64,000 nucleotides of DNA from Flavisolibacter longurius (GTDB lineage Bacteria; Bacteroidota; Bacteroidia; Chitinophagales; Chitinophagaceae), in contig JACJGO010000004.1 in the NCBI GenBank assembly GCA_014163555.1, forward strand, positions 186,001 to 250,000, in the 5' to 3' direction. Positions 8,933 to 21,325 of the stretch are shown piece after piece. The position numbers were made by a program, and so were the translations under genes. Position 1 is the stretch's first letter. Each line of letters starts with the position of its first letter. The notes below the pieces were generated by a model. It was not told the origin of the DNA. It searched no databases and was given only the letters and a program-made list of their open reading frames with translations.

Positions 8933-9397
8933 ATGGAACAAAATTCCTCGCTTTTTTCGCTCACCATCGATCCGCTTGCCAAATCGCACTTGCTGGAAAC
9001 GGCAAAATGGGCCCGCTTTTTAGCCATTGTAGGATTTGTATTTCTGGCATTTGCAGTTTTATTGGGTGTTTATTCAACGGTTACGGTCAACCGGTTTGAA
9101 GAAGATTATCGCGAAATGGGAGGATTGGGATCGGAGGGTGTTATGAGCTCCGCCGGTACAGGGGTGGCTGTGATGTACATCATCATGGCCGTAATCTGGT
9201 TTTTCCCCTTACTATTTACACTTCGCTTTGCCAACCAAATGCGTAATGCATTACAAGGAAATAACCAGGAACTGCTCAGTGCATCTTTTCATAACCTGAA
9301 AGTCTGTTACCGGTACCTGGGTATCATAACGGTAATTTTTCTTGTGATGATTGCCCTTTCGATGCTGTTCGGCATTATGGGAATGGCGCTTAGTTAG
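8933..9397 (+). CDS. DUF5362-type inner-membrane protein
   Basis: 154-residue protein with three hydrophobic segments (about 24-47, 78-102 and 126-150), matching the general layout of DUF5362 proteins of Bacteroidota, whose function is unknown. The second and third helices flank a short soluble loop containing MRNALQGNNQELLSASFHNLKVCYRYLG-like sequence. A -7-like TATCTTTA lies about 17 bases before the ATG. Its 3' end overlaps the convergent RDD gene by 8 bp, so the two transcripts are antisense at their ends. Confidence 0.75.
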   Translation: MEQNSSLFSLTIDPLAKSHLLETAKWARFLAIVGFVFLAFAVLLGVYSTVTVNRFEEDYREMGGLGSEGVMSSAGTGVAVMYIIMAVIWFFPLLFTLRFANQMRNALQGNNQELLSASFHNLKVCYRYLGIITVIFLVMIALSMLFGIMGMALS

Positions 9398-10193
9398 CAG
9401 ACAGATAGTTGTAATCTTTCAGCAGCACTTCCAAAAATGTTTCCGGTTCCATTGAGGTTTCAATTTTCAGGTGAGATTTGATCTTTTCGGCAGCCATCAT
9501 GGCCATAGTGGCGTCTTTGTGTTTGCGGGACGTATCAAGAATACTTTTCAGCGAGTTAATATCACGGTCGCTCAGTTGCATGATTTGCGGGAACTGCGGA
9601 ATATAACTGTCTTCCACTTCCCGGAACACCGTATCGGATATTTTTTCGTTTTGTTTGGTATCAATCAAAACCGTATGTGCCAGAATATCGCCGAGGCGCT
9701 GTTGCTTGCGGGTGTTGACCAGTATCAGGTCAGCCACCAATAAGCTCATGGAAATAGCCATGCCCCAATAAACCTGCGGGCCAAAGATTTGTGCGTAGGG
9801 AACCATCATAATCATCATGATCAGCGAAACATCCATGGTGCGCATCAGCCAGCGGATAATAAACTGGCCAATGGAAGGACGACCACCATTTTCGGAGACC
9901 ACCTTTATTCCCAACAATTTTTTCCCGATGCTTTGTCCCTGCATGGTGATTTCCAAAATAACATGGTACAACACAAACGGAAGGAAAAGCAACAAGCTGA
10001 TGGCCCAAACTTTCATGTTGCTGTCATCACCACGCATATAGATCGTTAGCCAGTTGAGCAGTCGTAAGGCTACAATCAGGTAAACGATCTGGATGATAAT
10101 ATCTATCACCCAGGCCGCCAGGCGCCTGTAAAACGGGGGTGCCGTAAACTCAATATCAATATTGAAATGTGTGGCAATGCGAACAACACTCAT
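9390..10193 (-). CDS. RDD family membrane protein
   Basis: 267 residues. The RDD domain (about 18-170) begins with FYRRLAAWVIDIIIQIVYL, whose Arg-Asp pair gives the family its name, and contains GQSIGKKLLGIKVVSENGG, the other conserved block. Four hydrophobic helices are seen, followed by a soluble helical C-terminal region (about 180-267) with YIPQFPQIMQLSDRDINSLKSIL. In Bacteroidota this longer form is common. RDD proteins are proposed to be transporters or membrane modulators; the role here is unknown. A good -7 box sits almost on the start codon. Confidence 0.85.
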   Translation of the reverse strand: MSVVRIATHFNIDIEFTAPPFYRRLAAWVIDIIIQIVYLIVALRLLNWLTIYMRGDDSNMKVWAISLLLFLPFVLYHVILEITMQGQSIGKKLLGIKVVSENGGRPSIGQFIIRWLMRTMDVSLIMMIMMVPYAQIFGPQVYWGMAISMSLLVADLILVNTRKQQRLGDILAHTVLIDTKQNEKISDTVFREVEDSYIPQFPQIMQLSDRDINSLKSILDTSRKHKDATMAMMAAEKIKSHLKIETSMEPETFLEVLLKDYNYLSAN

Positions 10194-14505: not shown

Positions 14506-15276
14506 ATGACAACGAGTGGTGCAGCCTTTGAACGGTTAGTGAGAATTATGAATGACCTGCGGGAAAAATGTCCATGGGATAAAAAACAAACCATCCAAAG
14601 CCTGCGGCAGATGACGCTGGAAGAAACTTACGAATTGGCCGATTCCATCACAGACGAAAACTGGAAAGGCATCAAAGAGGAGTTGGGCGATCTCTTGTTG
14701 CACATTGTGTTTTATGCGAAAATTGGAACGGAGCAAGAGCAATTTTCTATCGAAGATGTGATCAATGGTGTTTGCGAAAAATTGATTGTCCGCCATCCGC
14801 ACATTTATGGCGATGTGCAGGTAGAAAACGATGAAGACGTGAAGCGAAATTGGGAAAAGCTTAAAATAAAGGAAGGCAAAAAATCGGTGCTTTCCGGTGT
14901 GCCCAAAACGCTGCCTGCCCTTGTAAAGGCCATGCGCCTGCAAGAAAAAGCCAAACAGGTAGGCTTTGAATGGGAAAACAAGGAGCAGGTTTGGGAAAAG
15001 GTCAAAGAAGAGGAGGCTGAACTGCAGGAAGCCATGCGAAGCAGCGAACAGCAAAAGGTGGAAGAGGAGTTTGGCGACCTGCTATTTTCGCTGGTAAACT
15101 TTGCACGGTTTTTGAACATTGACGCCGAAAATGCCCTGGAAGTCACCAATAAAAAATTCATCAGGCGTTTTACACAGATGGAAGCCGCCGCCCAGGACAC
15201 TGGTAAACCACTAGCCGAGATGACACTGGAGGAAATGGATGCCATCTGGAATCGAATCAAACGACAGCAGGATTGA
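14506..15276 (+). CDS. mazG: Nucleoside triphosphate pyrophosphohydrolase MazG
   Basis: Hydrolyses NTPs/dNTPs to the monophosphate plus pyrophosphate, a housecleaning and stringent-response-linked activity. The 256-residue length is normal for the two-domain enzyme. The N-terminal domain has CPWDKKQTIQSLRQMTLEE and the metal-binding ExxE...ExxD pattern EELGDLLLHIVFYA. The C-terminal repeat has EEEAELQEAM and EEEFGDLLFSLVNFAR. It is flanked by DUF3667 (3 bp upstream) and a sensor kinase whose TTG start overlaps the mazG stop codon, so the three are probably one operon. Confidence 0.95.
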   Translation: MTTSGAAFERLVRIMNDLREKCPWDKKQTIQSLRQMTLEETYELADSITDENWKGIKEELGDLLLHIVFYAKIGTEQEQFSIEDVINGVCEKLIVRHPHIYGDVQVENDEDVKRNWEKLKIKEGKKSVLSGVPKTLPALVKAMRLQEKAKQVGFEWENKEQVWEKVKEEEAELQEAMRSSEQQKVEEEFGDLLFSLVNFARFLNIDAENALEVTNKKFIRRFTQMEAAAQDTGKPLAEMTLEEMDAIWNRIKRQQD

Positions 15277-18200
15277 AAACCTTCCGCATTCATAACCGTC
15301 ATTTTCGTTTACGCTATTTTTTCTTATCAGCAGTTGCCCTGCTGCTTTTATCGTTTTTAACCGCCTGGTTCTTTAATTCCTCCATTTCTGTAGCCCACCA
15401 GAAACAAAGCCTGCAGCAGTTTATTGCAAAACAGCAGCAGGACGCCAATGCGCTGATGTCCGATCTGGTGTTGATGCGCAAACTGGTACGAAAAGAAGCA
15501 ACCAAAGAGGAATTTGAAACCCTGACGGCAAAGCGATATGGCTTTTTTATTTTCCAGGAAACGCTTTCAGAAACCGACGCTCCTGTTTTCTGGAATACAC
15601 AAAGGGTGACGCCACCACCACCTCAATACGACAGTAGCAGCTTGGTTACTTTTCAGAAATATTTTAACGGTTATTATGTGGTGCACAGGCAACGACTGGA
15701 TCTTCCCGGCATGAGCAATACCATGGTAGCGTATGCAATGATCCCTGTGCTGACCCGCTATCCGTTTGAGTCTAATGATTCCAGGACAAATTTTGCCCAC
15801 GACAGAAATGCAATTGAAAAAATTGCCATTGCCGAAGGCAGAACAGAATTCCCTATTGTATCATTTGATAAAAAGGTATTGTTTTACCTGAAGGAAGCGC
15901 ATGAACAGGATGAGGCCAAGCCGGATATGGTCACGATCGTTCTTCGGCTTACGGTATTTCTTTTTCTACTGATTGCGTTTCATTTTCTGGCGGTTTATGT
16001 TTTAAAGAAAAAGGGAAATCTTACCGGTATTGTTTTTCTGGCCCTGGGGCTGTTAGTCCTTCGTTTTACGCTGTACTATTTTCCCGGTTTGCTTTCGTTG
16101 CGGTCCTTTTCACTTTTTGACCCTTCTGTTTACGGTTCCAATTTTTTAAACCGTTCGTTGGGTGATCTGCTGATCAATGCCGTTATGATTTGTTGGCTGA
16201 TGCTTTTTGCCTGGAACTATCTGGGCCCCCTAAAAAAGCTGCCATACTTCCTGAATGGTAAGAAAGTGGTTATTGCCGGTGTTGTTGGCGTTTTCGTATT
16301 GCTGTTTATAACCTTCCAGCTTGCCACCATTGTGCACAACCTGGTAATGAACTCAAAGATTTCTTTTGACGTTACCGACTTCTCCAGTATCACGGTTTAT
16401 ACCGGTTTCAGTTTTTTGATTCTTGCCCTGTTGTCACTTAGCTATTATTATTTTACCCGCCTGCTTTTCCGGGCTGTATTGATGGCTATTCCCAACCTTG
16501 TGCATTTATATTTTGTGGTGGCATTGATGGGACTTGTGTTTTTGACGTTTCAGTCCAATCAGGATGACTACTCATCAGTTCTTTTCCGGCTTCCTATTTT
16601 GGCCTGGCTGGTGGGCTATACACTCATATTAACACAGGAGCAAGCCATCATTAATCGCTTTCGGGTTACTATCGCCGGAATTTTATTTTGGGCGTTTATG
16701 TTTTCCGTTTCTCTGGCGGCGCTCATTATGAGCAGTAACCGGGAACGAGAGCAACGCCTCTTAAAAGGGATGGCTGAGAAATATGAAGAGCTCTGGGAAC
16801 CAACAAAAGAAAAAACGCTCAGAATTATCCTGCAATACCTGGATAACCGTTATTTAAATACAAATTTTCACCGCTTCTATAATTACCAGGATAGCTATGA
16901 CATTCGTGATAGCATCGCTACTTCGCAGATTACATCTTCGTTCAGTAAATACAGCATGAATATTTACCTGTTCGACTCTGCCGGTACCGGTATCAACAAT
17001 CCGGATAGTCGGTCCTATGCCGAACTGGAAAATATTTATACGGTACAAAGTAAACCCGCCGGCGCTGGTGACCTCATGTATTACGAAACCTCACTTTCTG
17101 ATTTTGTGTATATCGTAAAGCGGGAAATTTTCGACAGTACAAAGCTCAAAGGCATACTGTTTTTACTGGCACGGCCGCGTAATTTCTCCGGTAGAACTGA
17201 ACTGTTGCCCGAGCAGTTTCGCCGGGGTAAATTCGAAGAACGGTACACTCCATCCATCCTGGCCATTTACAAGAATAATAAACTGATACAGCAATGGGGA
17301 ACATATCCTTTCCTCGTATCCCTTGCGCCACAAAACATTCCCGCAGCACAGGAGGCGTTGATTGAAAAAGATGAGTACAATGAACTTTGGTACAAAGGCT
17401 CCAATAAAAAGATCATTGTTGTTGTAAGTAAAAAAGAATCACTGATCGAAAGCATTACCTTGTTTTCTTACCTGTTTTGTTCTTTTTTGTTTATGATTGG
17501 CATTATACGCTTGTTTGAACTTTCAGCCCAGATCATCCGGTCCTGGCCGGAAATAAATATCTTTTCATCGCTGAGCATCCGGTCGCAGATTCATGCAACA
17601 ATCATCTTTATTTCCATCCTCTCGTTTCTGATCATTGGTGTGGCTACCATCTCTTATTTCGTGCAGCGCAATGATCGAAACGCCAATGCAAACCTGAACA
17701 AAACGGCCACTTCTACGCATAGTGAATATCAGAAACTGATTAAAGACCTGGACCTAAATTTTACCAGTGTAAACTTTCCTACCCTAGCAGGGAATGAATC
17801 CTTGCATCTGGGTGTCGATGAAATTTCTACCGTACATGGTCAGACTGTAAATGTTTATGACATTGATGGCAACCTACAGATCACATCTGCCAAGGACATT
17901 TACACGCCGGGAGTGCTCAGCACAAAAATGAATCCGCAAGCTTATTTCCATCTTCGGAATTTGAACCAGGCGCAGTTGGTACAGATCGAACGTCTGCCTG
18001 ACCTTGAATACCGCAGTCTGTATATGGCCATACGCAATGCTAACAATGATACCTATGCGTATTTGAATGTGCCTTCTTTTACATCGGCCGATGAATTGAA
18101 CCAGGAGATTTCCAACTTTTTGGTGACCATCATTAACCTGAATGCATTTATTCTTTTGATTGCCGGTGTTGTGGCCCTGTTTATTACCAACCGCATTACC

Positions 18201-19037
18201 CGTTCTTTCTCTATCATTGGAAACAAGATGAAAGAAGTTACATTGGGCAAAACCAACCAGGAAATTGAATGGAGTAAAGACGACGAGATTGGTGAATTGG
18301 TAACGCAGTACAACAAAATGGTGCATCAGTTGGAAGAGAGTGCATCCGCCCTTGCGAAAAGCGAACGTGAAGGTGCCTGGCGGGAGATGGCCCGGCAGGT
18401 GGCACATGAAATTAAGAACCCGTTGACGCCAATGAAGCTGAGTATTCAGTACCTGCAAAAGGCTATTCAAAATAACCAGCCCAATGTACAGGAACTGACC
18501 ACTAACGTTGCCAGTACCCTCATTGAACAAATTGACCATCTTTCAAAAATTGCTGCCGACTTTTCGCAGTTTGCCAATATTGGAAACAAGCGTTTGGAGC
18601 GAATAGACCTGCACAACGTGATTGGTTCGTTGCTTGACCTGTTTTCAACCAACCCCAAAGTGGATGTTTCCTGGAAGCCTGTAAGTCATGAGGTATTGAT
18701 GCAGGTAGATAAAACGCATATGAATCGTTTGTTTACCAACCTGCTCACCAATGCGGTGGATGCCTGTTCGGAACGCCAGCAATGTATTGTGACAATTACG
18801 GAAAAAATTGTTGGTAACGATTTTCAGGTAGCGGTTGCCGACAATGGCGATGGCATTCCGATGGAAATGCAGTCGAAGATTTTTACGCCGAATTTTACTA
18901 CCAAAACTTCAGGTACAGGCCTCGGCCTTGCTATGTGCAAAGGCATTGTAGAACAAGCTGGCGGTCGTATTTGGTTTACAACCGAAGAGGGTGTTGGAAC
19001 GACATTCTTTGTGCAACTGCCTTTAGCAGCCTCCTAG
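15273..19037 (+). CDS. Giant membrane sensor histidine kinase
   Basis: 1254 residues. The TTG start overlaps the mazG TGA (TTGA), implying translational coupling; the first ATG in frame is much later. The N-terminus has one helix (about 15-35), a periplasmic loop, then about eight helices (roughly 210-490), a large extracytoplasmic sensor region, a helix near 725-745 and another near 770-790, a second sensor segment and a helix near 955-980. These lead to a HAMP domain (NRITRSFSIIGNKMKEV). The kinase core has the H-box VAHEIKNPLTPMK with His1045, an N-box NLLTNAVDAC, and the G-boxes DNGDGIP and GTGLGLAMCKGIVEQ. The order resembles NtrY-like kinases. No response regulator is adjacent, so its partner is unknown. 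Confidence 0.88.
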   Translation: MKTFRIHNRHFRLRYFFLSAVALLLLSFLTAWFFNSSISVAHQKQSLQQFIAKQQQDANALMSDLVLMRKLVRKEATKEEFETLTAKRYGFFIFQETLSETDAPVFWNTQRVTPPPPQYDSSSLVTFQKYFNGYYVVHRQRLDLPGMSNTMVAYAMIPVLTRYPFESNDSRTNFAHDRNAIEKIAIAEGRTEFPIVSFDKKVLFYLKEAHEQDEAKPDMVTIVLRLTVFLFLLIAFHFLAVYVLKKKGNLTGIVFLALGLLVLRFTLYYFPGLLSLRSFSLFDPSVYGSNFLNRSLGDLLINAVMICWLMLFAWNYLGPLKKLPYFLNGKKVVIAGVVGVFVLLFITFQLATIVHNLVMNSKISFDVTDFSSITVYTGFSFLILALLSLSYYYFTRLLFRAVLMAIPNLVHLYFVVALMGLVFLTFQSNQDDYSSVLFRLPILAWLVGYTLILTQEQAIINRFRVTIAGILFWAFMFSVSLAALIMSSNREREQRLLKGMAEKYEELWEPTKEKTLRIILQYLDNRYLNTNFHRFYNYQDSYDIRDSIATSQITSSFSKYSMNIYLFDSAGTGINNPDSRSYAELENIYTVQSKPAGAGDLMYYETSLSDFVYIVKREIFDSTKLKGILFLLARPRNFSGRTELLPEQFRRGKFEERYTPSILAIYKNNKLIQQWGTYPFLVSLAPQNIPAAQEALIEKDEYNELWYKGSNKKIIVVVSKKESLIESITLFSYLFCSFLFMIGIIRLFELSAQIIRSWPEINIFSSLSIRSQIHATIIFISILSFLIIGVATISYFVQRNDRNANANLNKTATSTHSEYQKLIKDLDLNFTSVNFPTLAGNESLHLGVDEISTVHGQTVNVYDIDGNLQITSAKDIYTPGVLSTKMNPQAYFHLRNLNQAQLVQIERLPDLEYRSLYMAIRNANNDTYAYLNVPSFTSADELNQEISNFLVTIINLNAFILLIAGVVALFITNRITRSFSIIGNKMKEVTLGKTNQEIEWSKDDEIGELVTQYNKMVHQLEESASALAKSEREGAWREMARQVAHEIKNPLTPMKLSIQYLQKAIQNNQPNVQELTTNVASTLIEQIDHLSKIAADFSQFANIGNKRLERIDLHNVIGSLLDLFSTNPKVDVSWKPVSHEVLMQVDKTHMNRLFTNLLTNAVDACSERQQCIVTITEKIVGNDFQVAVADNGDGIPMEMQSKIFTPNFTTKTSGTGLGLAMCKGIVEQAGGRIWFTTEEGVGTTFFVQLPLAAS

Positions 19038-19092: not shown

Positions 19093-20772
19093 CTAACTAC
19101 GTTGTAATTTCTTTCTTTTTGTCTCAGCAAGAAATGTTTCAAATTCCTGTAGACTAAAAGAGCTGAGGTTTTTGGCTGTTGGTAAACCACCTTTTTGTGC
19201 CACTAGGGTTCCGTATTTTATATAATTAAATTCTTCCAATGCATGGGCATCGGGATTAATGGAAAGCAACACACCTTTTTCCATGGCGTAATCAATCCAG
19301 CGCCAGTCCATATCCAGCCGGCTGGGAGAGGCATTGATCTCGATAACAACATTATTCGCTGCACAGGCATCAATGATGGCTCTGTGATCAACCGGATAGC
19401 CCTTACGCCGCAACAGCAAGCGGCCCGTCATGTGACCAAGAATTGTTGTGTACGGATTAGTAATGGCGCCCATCAATCGCTGCATGGCCTTCTCTTCATC
19501 CATATCCAGGTTGCTGTGGACTGAAGTGATCACAAGATCAAACGTGGATAGTGTGTCGTTATCATAGTCCAGTGAGCCATCACCCAGAATATCACATTCG
19601 ATGCTTTTGAAAATTTTGAACGGAGCGAACTTTTCGTTGAGGCTGTCAATGTAGCGGTGTTGTTCGCGAATACGTTCTTCGCTCAAACCATTGGCATAAT
19701 AGGCTGCTTTGGAATGATCGGAAATCACCAGGTACTCAAAGCCAAGCCGGATTAGTTCTTCTGCCATTTGCTCGATGGTATAGCCGCCGTCGCTCCAGTT
19801 GCTGTGCGAATGAACCAACCCTTTGATTGAATTGGTTTCTACAATGGCAGAAAGCTTTTCATTCGTGATGGTTTGAAGAACCTCAGGTTTTTCCCGCAGG
19901 TAGGGGGGGAGATAGGGAAAGCCTGCCGACTGAAAAATAGCTTCTTCTGATTGGGTTTCTGACCAGGCATTATCGATAGAAAAAGCAGCGAGGAATTCTT
20001 CACTGCTACTTGTTCTAAACAGTGTTGCATAAAACGTATCAGGGCTTGCAAAATGAAACAGGATCTTCAGTCTTTCTTCTACACGGAGTAGTAAATTGTC
20101 AGGGCCTTCGGTTAAAATTTCCACTTGGTCGTTCAACAGGTAATCAATCAACTCCCGTTGGCCGGCAGTGGTCACCCATTCCAATTGGCTGATCACTTCC
20201 AACTGCCGACGGAACTCGCCGGTAATGGCTGTTTGCGCATCCGGAAACTTTGCTTCCAGTTTGCTTTGCAGGGCCAGTGCAAAATCTTCGACGTGTTTAT
20301 ACAGATAGCTTCCCTTGTTTTCACTGGCAAAGGCAATGGCTTCAAGTATTTTTTGCTCGGTCTTTTCACCAAATCCTTTTTTACTGGCGATTCGGTTTTC
20401 ACGACAGGCCTTTTCCAGTTCTTCAATGGTATCGATCTTCATTTCTTTCCAGATCACATTGATCTTTTTCGGACCAAGGCCTTTGATGTTCATCATTTCC
20501 AACACACCGGTTGGTGTTTTCTGCAACAGTTCCTGCAAGGCCTTTAGTTCACCCGTTTGTAAAACTTCAACAATTTTTTTTGCTGTGCTGTCGCCTATCC
20601 CGCGAATGGCTGCAATTTGTTCCGGGCTCAGGGCAGAAAGTTCCTGCGGTGCCTTTTCAATCGCAAAGGCTGCGCTGGCGTAACTTTTTGCTTTAAAAGC
20701 GTTTTCACCATGAATGTCCATCAATTTGGAGAGGAGGGAGAACTGATCGGCTATTGCGTAATTATCAACCAC
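19093..20772 (-). CDS. PolX-family protein with decayed polymerase site and intact PHP domain
   Basis: 559 residues from a GTG start. The N-terminal 8-kDa-like and helix-hairpin-helix region (about 1-150, with IRGIGDSTAKKI and IKGLGPKKINVIW) binds DNA in PolX enzymes. The palm region should have a GS-x-RR motif and a DxD metal pair; here it reads ITGEFRRQLEVISQLEWV (183-200), which lacks the Ser and both Asp, so nucleotidyl transfer seems unlikely. The C-terminal PHP domain (about 317-555) keeps its metal ligands: HSHSNWSDG (His321, His323), SDHSK, IECDILGDG, TSVHSNL, GHMTG and NPDAH. It is therefore best read as a PHP-type nuclease or phosphoesterase with a DNA-binding module. Confidence 0.88.
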   Translation of the reverse strand: MVDNYAIADQFSLLSKLMDIHGENAFKAKSYASAAFAIEKAPQELSALSPEQIAAIRGIGDSTAKKIVEVLQTGELKALQELLQKTPTGVLEMMNIKGLGPKKINVIWKEMKIDTIEELEKACRENRIASKKGFGEKTEQKILEAIAFASENKGSYLYKHVEDFALALQSKLEAKFPDAQTAITGEFRRQLEVISQLEWVTTAGQRELIDYLLNDQVEILTEGPDNLLLRVEERLKILFHFASPDTFYATLFRTSSSEEFLAAFSIDNAWSETQSEEAIFQSAGFPYLPPYLREKPEVLQTITNEKLSAIVETNSIKGLVHSHSNWSDGGYTIEQMAEELIRLGFEYLVISDHSKAAYYANGLSEERIREQHRYIDSLNEKFAPFKIFKSIECDILGDGSLDYDNDTLSTFDLVITSVHSNLDMDEEKAMQRLMGAITNPYTTILGHMTGRLLLRRKGYPVDHRAIIDACAANNVVIEINASPSRLDMDWRWIDYAMEKGVLLSINPDAHALEEFNYIKYGTLVAQKGGLPTAKNLSSFSLQEFETFLAETKRKKLQRS

Positions 20773-20953: not shown

Positions 20954-21325
20954 TTATTTGCTGCTCTTCTTAGCGGCTCCTTTAGAAGAAGCTTTGCTGG
21001 CTCCGCCTTTCTTGGCAGCGCCTTTAGAAGCACTTGCTTTTTTAGCGGTGCTCTTAGAAGCTGTTTTAGAAGAGGCTTTTGAAGTGCTTCCTTTTTTAGC
21101 GGCTCCTTTTGAAGAAGCACCTTTAGAAGATGTGCTCTTAGAAGAAGCTTTGCTGGCTCCGCCTTTCTTGGCTGCACTCTTAGTTGCACCACCTTTAGAA
21201 GAAGCTTTGCTAGCGCCACCTTTTTTAGCAGCACTCTTAGTTGTGCTTTTCGATGCACTCTTCGAAGAACTCTTTGCAGCTCCTTTCGAAGCGCTTTTGC
21301 CTGCAGCTTTTTTTGCTGTTGCCAT
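20954..21325 (-). CDS. Histone H1-like Lys/Ala/Ser-rich repeat protein
   Basis: 123 residues made almost wholly of Lys, Ala, Ser, Gly and Thr. Recurrent units are KKGGASKASSKG, AAKKG and SKSAS-type blocks; there are no acidic residues and no aromatic residues. Such low-complexity basic proteins resemble the C-terminal tail of histone H1 and bacterial H1-like proteins (Hc1, AlgP), which bind and compact DNA; that role here is inference. Repeats at DNA level make the length prone to slippage. A strong terminator follows. The complementary strand is also open through the repeat, a by-product of composition rather than a gene. Confidence 0.75.
   Translation of the reverse strand: MATAKKAAGKSASKGAAKSSSKSASKSTTKSAAKKGGASKASSKGGATKSAAKKGGASKASSKSTSSKGASSKGAAKKGSTSKASSKTASKSTAKKASASKGAAKKGGASKASSKGAAKKSSK

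Follow-up and report, generated by a model that had tools for sequence, protein, structure and literature searches.

Noncanonical PolX proteins, in which the polymerase site has been altered, have already been defined by Prostova et al. 2022 (PMC9226535), who assign the majority to a single cluster made up mainly of Bacteroidetes and Deinococcus-Thermus. Taibaiella soli and a Flavisolibacter sp. are listed in the legend of Figure 3A of that paper. According to the same source, the PolX enzymes of Deinococcus radiodurans and D. gobiensis, which carry AEE and ARE at the triad positions, have no polymerase activity; they are strong 3'-5' exonucleases that depend on Mn2+ and on the ligands of the PHP domain. 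An older report of polymerase activity for the D. radiodurans enzyme is ascribed there to contamination, and the discussion names the purpose of the nuclease and the retention of a dead palm as open questions. In B. subtilis PolX, R469, R474, N498, R503, K545 and F440 are required for the nuclease activities (Rodriguez et al. 2019, PMC6616362). Further, a 2026 survey (PMC12926913) reports the PHP site as conserved in 95% of PolX1 and the polymerase site in 75%.

The gene described here lies in a 64,000-nucleotide stretch of Flavisolibacter longurius DNA, which was analysed as a whole and is called the window below. The original prediction had placed a PolX protein at exactly this open frame, which encodes 559 aa, but gave no strand; the gene is on the minus strand (Table 1), and the plus-strand reading of the same interval contains 16 stops. 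HHH_8 (64.1 bits) and HHH_5 (58.9 bits) each score above the Pfam cut-off, in agreement with the prediction that the helix-hairpin-helix (HhH) region is kept. PHP also exceeds its Pfam cut-off, the thumb match is weak, and no Pfam match is listed for the palm at E values up to 1. The NCBIfam PolX model NF006375 gives 416.4 bits, slightly below its curated cut-off of 426. In a sequence search of solved structures, D. radiodurans PolX 2w9m came top (1.3e-89) and T. thermophilus PolX next (about 2.6e-65). Among the best 80 of 593 related loci, the nearest named relatives in the tree belong to the Chitinophagaceae/Chitinophagales. The Taibaiella soli and Flavisolibacter sp. mentioned above are presumably Chitinophagaceae as well (Taibaiella also by the labels of our tree). 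The 5.66-Mb assembly holds a single PolX match, and no second, canonical PolX was found in it. We give a probability of about 0.9 to the reading of this gene as a noncanonical PolX with a dead polymerase site and a kept PHP nuclease site.

Table 1. Coordinates of the PolX gene and its parts in the window, and of the end-joining genes elsewhere in the same genome
Feature	Coordinates	Strand	Remarks
PolX gene, assigned as noncanonical	19093..20772, stop codon included	minus	Single ORF, 559 aa, GTG start
8-kDa / helix-hairpin-helix region, residues 1-152 (bounds are our anchor choice)	20317..20772	minus	Pfam HHH_8 (3-76) and HHH_5 (91-146)
Palm (nucleotidyltransferase fold), residues 153-248	20029..20316	minus	Triad replaced by Q196 E198 L238
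GEFRRQLEVISQLEW, residues 185-199 (canonical GSxRR ... GDxD)	20176..20220	minus	Translation and alignment
Shortened fingers and start of linker, residues 249-292	19897..20028	minus	40 residues between anchors; helices only in model
PHP nuclease domain, residues 315-553	19114..19830	minus	Nine ligands HHHEHHEDH; R451 R456 N480 R485 K527
LigD and Ku of the window's genome	L054:5914-8613 and 8936-9718	minus	LigD (phosphoesterase-ligase-polymerase) adjoins Ku

The polymerase site was read in an alignment of 131 rows, comprising the window protein, the PolX of T. thermophilus and of D. radiodurans, and 128 relatives. Of these relatives, 48 came from a genome search and 80 were the best of the 593 related loci, a choice biased towards near relatives. 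The columns of the D-D-D triad hold Q196, E198 and L238 in the window protein, and three MAFFT alignments of an enlarged row set give the same assignment. The same columns yield AEE for D. radiodurans PolX, and we regard the alignment as checked because this agrees with Prostova et al. (PMC9226535). At the position of GEFRRQLEVISQLEW, the motif quoted in the original prediction, the 10 acidic-triad Bacteroidota PolX that were read have G[D/V]xD-type motifs, such as GSLRRxxExxGDIDIL. Three acids are present in 11 of the 131 rows (ten Bacteroidota and T. thermophilus), and 120 rows are altered. A search across the phylum matched PolX in 133 of 296 genomes; triads were read in a subset of 49 of the matching rows, of which 10 are acidic and 39 altered. 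The subset was picked by score and spread, and its figures describe this non-random choice rather than a phylum-wide proportion. An alignment with other Bacteroidota PolX, suggested in the original prediction as a check, thus confirms that the three catalytic Asp are lost. The claim that the metal site has no Asp holds for all three positions, but it overlooked Glu198, the one acid retained, at triad position 2.

The surroundings of the triad have changed too. Columns of the dNTP site read R/S/S/E/L in the window protein against Y/G/S/K/N in canonical rows: R, S, E and L stand in place of the steric-gate Tyr, the glycine of GS, the lysine and the asparagine, and the Ser equivalent to S275 is retained. 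Measured between anchors of our own rather than the domain bounds of Prostova et al., the fingers span 40 residues in the window protein, 56 in T. thermophilus, a mean of 62 in the 11 acidic-triad rows and a mean of 43 in the 120 altered rows. The palm, measured in the same way, spans 96 and 99 residues in the two proteins, with means of 101 in acidic-triad and 97 in altered rows. An AlphaFold2 model built with 42 aligned family proteins (mean pLDDT 92.3, pTM 0.83) has a whole palm with helix and strands (158-241) and, in the fingers, helices only. Its best VIA-align match is T. thermophilus PolX 3au6 (Z 42.2, 4.6 Å over 539 residues); D. radiodurans 2w9m_B aligns with Z 39.1 at 15.2 Å, which corresponds to another placement of the domains. 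The first seven Foldseek matches are all PolX structures. Judging by the model, the dead palm probably still folds. Sequence, alignment and model, together with published biochemistry on two relatives, support the loss of the polymerase centre.

At the PHP domain, the prediction of a fully kept metal site was borne out. All nine ligands are present (H321, H323, H353, E392, H419, H447, E478, D508 and H510), and the pattern HHHEHHEDH recurs in all altered rows but one (167/168), that one being without its last two columns. By numbering, with a fixed offset of 18, R451, R456, N480, R485 and K527 would correspond to B. subtilis R469, R474, N498, R503 and K545. The first four are invariant across all 168 altered rows, and the position of K527 is Lys in 164. 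By the same offset, Leu422 occupies the position of B. subtilis Phe440. This position is Leu in 156 of the 168 altered rows; among 15 acidic-triad rows it is Phe in nine and Leu in five. The PolX of D. radiodurans and that of T. thermophilus both have Phe here. The replacement of Phe by Leu422 could mean a weaker AP-site or nuclease action, or a changed handling of AP sites.

The altered state is widely shared. In a tree built by a quick method on HhH and PHP columns, the window protein lies inside an altered Bacteroidota clade of 110 rows (support 99) that contains no acidic-triad row and runs through Chitinophagaceae, Saprospiraceae/Lewinellaceae, Sphingobacteriaceae, Cyclobacteriaceae and Hymenobacteraceae. 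A further 10 altered rows fall outside it, L030, L049 and L052 among them standing beside canonical rows. The Deinococcus row groups with T. thermophilus on long branches, with a support of only 16 in this quick tree. As far as these sequences tell, the loss of the polymerase is old, since the whole clade shares the altered triad. Within the window's own family, 57 genomes had a match, and 56 primary copies were read, the match in G306 being an unread fragment of 146 codons. None of the 56 has three acids (0/56). All nine PHP ligands are present in 55, and the other copy (L187) runs off the end of its contig; it is included in the triad count of 56 and left out of the 168-row pair analysis below and of the tree used there. 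These counts and the 110-row clade rule out a chance error or one confined to a single genome. A sequencing or frame error was also rejected, because the frame is open and a same-genus relative (71% identical) has GEFRR...QLEW, with the triad Q-E-E.

Conservation differs between the parts of the protein. Identity between the window protein and 118 altered relatives is 0.48 in the HhH region, 0.26 in the palm, 0.31 in the fingers and 0.61 in PHP, whereas the corresponding values among ten canonical rows are 0.46, 0.42, 0.51 and 0.56. Palm and fingers are thus the least conserved parts of altered PolX, and on account of these lower identities we regard them as relaxed relative to canonical PolX. 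The palm nevertheless appears to be under some constraint, because its omega lies between 0.06 and 0.57 in altered pairs with a computable dS, by a crude counting method and with dS saturated in many pairs.

Acids at the former triad positions 2 and 3 tend to exclude each other. Among 168 altered rows, both positions are acidic in six, only position 2 in 120, only position 3 in 24, and neither in 18. This pair is the most exclusive of the 1275 palm column pairs with enough acids, and it also ranks first in two other alignments of 1225 pairs each. With kinship ignored, the Fisher p is 1.3e-12 over the 168 rows; for a thinned set of 56 rows, all below 60% identity, the table is 4/37/7/8 and the p 0.005, again with kinship ignored. 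On a tree, 22 clades are without an acid at position 2, and acids at position 3 occur in 10 of them. The second-best palm pair, residues 186/195, reaches p 6.6e-10, and other pairs also score high. Where position 2 is acidic, position 3 is K, R or H in 61 of 127 rows. On these sequences, the exclusion is a trend with exceptions and no strict rule. Its plain reading would be that, without the metal, two adjacent carboxylates are disfavoured and one is often retained, as would be expected of a metal-free site. In the main text of PMC9226535, we found no mention of this exclusion apart from one general sentence on the electrostatic environment.

Some genomes of the family carry a second PolX; five second copies were read, four with D-D-D and one altered. 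In genome G300, the second copy (L186, G300:C41:40700-42800) has an intact D-D-D and a degraded PHP site, with RQRL-NECQ at the nine ligand columns. The first PolX of that genome (L168) has an altered triad and an intact PHP site, so that the two copies form a reciprocal split.

Close to polX, the window carries genes for L27, L21, a histidine kinase and MazG, as well as a lysine-rich ORF. We rejected this neighbourhood as a functional clue, since it is lineage-specific: the commonest family besides PolX occurs in 23 of 81 loci and has no evident relevance to repair in the loci inspected. The lysine-rich ORF (20954-21325, minus strand), between L27 and polX, encodes 123 aa that are repetitive, rich in Lys, Ala and Ser and similar in make-up to histone H1; it has no NCBIfam match. 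Of the 75 named loci tested, 15 have a Lys/Ala/Pro-rich ORF directly upstream of polX, and the same filter finds none in L002. The histidine kinase (15273-19037, plus strand) is a 1254-aa sensor kinase with a long N-terminal part, convergent with polX and beside MazG (14506-15276). Its orthologues are found close to polX in 14 of the 81 loci.

We infer the nuclease activity of the window protein, and its want of polymerase activity, from relatives, namely the two Deinococcus enzymes. The 8-kDa/HhH region and what remains of palm and fingers might serve to bind DNA at ends, nicks or short gaps and to keep the 3' end in place. By analogy with the relatives, the palm would no longer bind catalytic metal or dNTP, and no synthesis would follow. 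The C-terminal PHP domain, with its nine metal ligands, would then clear 3' ends of nucleotides or of blocking groups as a Mn2+-dependent 3'-5' exonuclease, and might also act as a 3'-phosphatase or AP endonuclease, as in other PolX. In the cell, such an enzyme could serve as a general cleaner of 3' ends in repair, not bound to end joining by Ku and LigD. We tentatively combine these points, at slightly less than even odds, into one picture: the dead palm would be a folded, constrained module that tolerates at most one carboxylate at positions 2 and 3, and the protein a near-core 3'-end nuclease independent of Ku and LigD, with G300 showing that the opposite split also occurs.

Other readings of the protein fit the evidence less well. 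It might still polymerise, with the metal bound by Glu198 and further acids in a rearranged site; the acid at position 2, found in 127 of 169 altered rows, and the old report that the AEE enzyme of D. radiodurans polymerises (told in PMC9226535) speak in its favour. Position 1 carries Gln and position 3 Leu, however, the residues of the dNTP site are gone, and both the AEE and the ARE enzymes tested were inactive (PMC9226535). Rescue by other acids was also rejected, given that just six of 168 altered rows have acids at both position 2 and position 3, and we consider continued polymerisation very improbable. Still less can be said for a decaying, pseudogene-like protein without function. Although the palm evolves fast, the frame is intact, the PHP ligands are invariant, and PHP is 0.85 identical to that of the same-genus copy, with an omega of 0.066; further, PolX is present in 57 of 60 sampled family genomes, including several of 1.9-2.3 Mb. 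This conservation refutes decay. The original prediction had proposed a conversion from polymerase-nuclease to DNA-guided nuclease. The conversion itself agrees with the lost triad, the intact PHP site and the biochemistry of two relatives, but it had already been described, is old, and is the rule in the family. A nuclease programmed by a guide is about as hard to credit as a pseudogene: neither the sequence nor the PolX literature consulted offered a point in its support, the domain content is that of an ordinary PolX by Pfam, NCBIfam and structure match, and the genes around polX are those listed above. If 'DNA-guided' means recruitment to DNA by the HhH/8-kDa region, this is the ordinary PolX arrangement.

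A more serious contender is that the window protein processes ends for non-homologous end joining (NHEJ) together with Ku and LigD. The window's genome encodes Ku side by side with a LigD that has phosphoesterase, ligase and primase-polymerase domains. Across Bacteroidetes, NHEJ is encoded by about 49% of genomes with PolX and about 19% of those without (PMC9226535). Among the 60 sampled genomes of the family, however, with PolX in 57, Ku in 31 and LigD_N in 32, PolX is kept in 27 of 29 Ku-less genomes and in 30 of 31 with Ku (Fisher p 0.61), a comparison with little power as PolX is nearly universal. It is also present in 26 of 28 genomes with neither Ku nor LigD_N. In some family genomes (e.g. 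G017, G253 and G297), LigD_N is encoded apart, in its own open frame of about 200 codons close to Ku. Independence within the family and the association across Bacteroidetes may both be true. We judge a dedicated NHEJ role unlikely, at perhaps one chance in a few; the retention of PolX regardless of Ku favours the wider role in cleaning 3' ends.

PolX is still annotated as a DNA polymerase, a label that is probably wrong for the main copy in this family. Because polymerase-dead PolX is near-universal here, even where Ku and LigD are absent, the family offers a good system for studying the purpose of the nuclease and the retention of the dead palm. Our analysis adds the near-core status of PolX in the family, the low conservation of palm and fingers, and the exclusion of acids at positions 2 and 3.

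The window protein fits the noncanonical PolX group already described, and the finding is mostly not new. It shares with that group (PMC9226535) an altered triad, an altered dNTP site, shortened fingers, the PHP pattern HHHEHHEDH, the 8-kDa region and a Bacteroidetes host. The fingers deletion reported for many members is present here too; the palm deletion is reported for some, and the palm of the window protein is close in length to that of T. thermophilus (96 against 99 residues). D. radiodurans PolX (2w9m, AEE) differs in its triad, which is QEL here, and in having Phe where the window protein has Leu422; the two are 33% identical in the structural alignment. With canonical PolX (T. thermophilus 3au2/3au6/3auo; B. 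subtilis), the window protein has in common the fold and the order 8-kDa/HhH, palm, fingers and PHP. Unlike them, it has neither the D-D-D triad nor the Y..GSK..N dNTP site, and its fingers are 16 residues shorter than in T. thermophilus. The PolX-like PHP proteins of Actinobacteria (PMC12926913) have likewise kept the PHP nuclease and lost synthesis, but they are without the polymerase region entirely, whereas the palm of the window protein is present and, in the model, folded.
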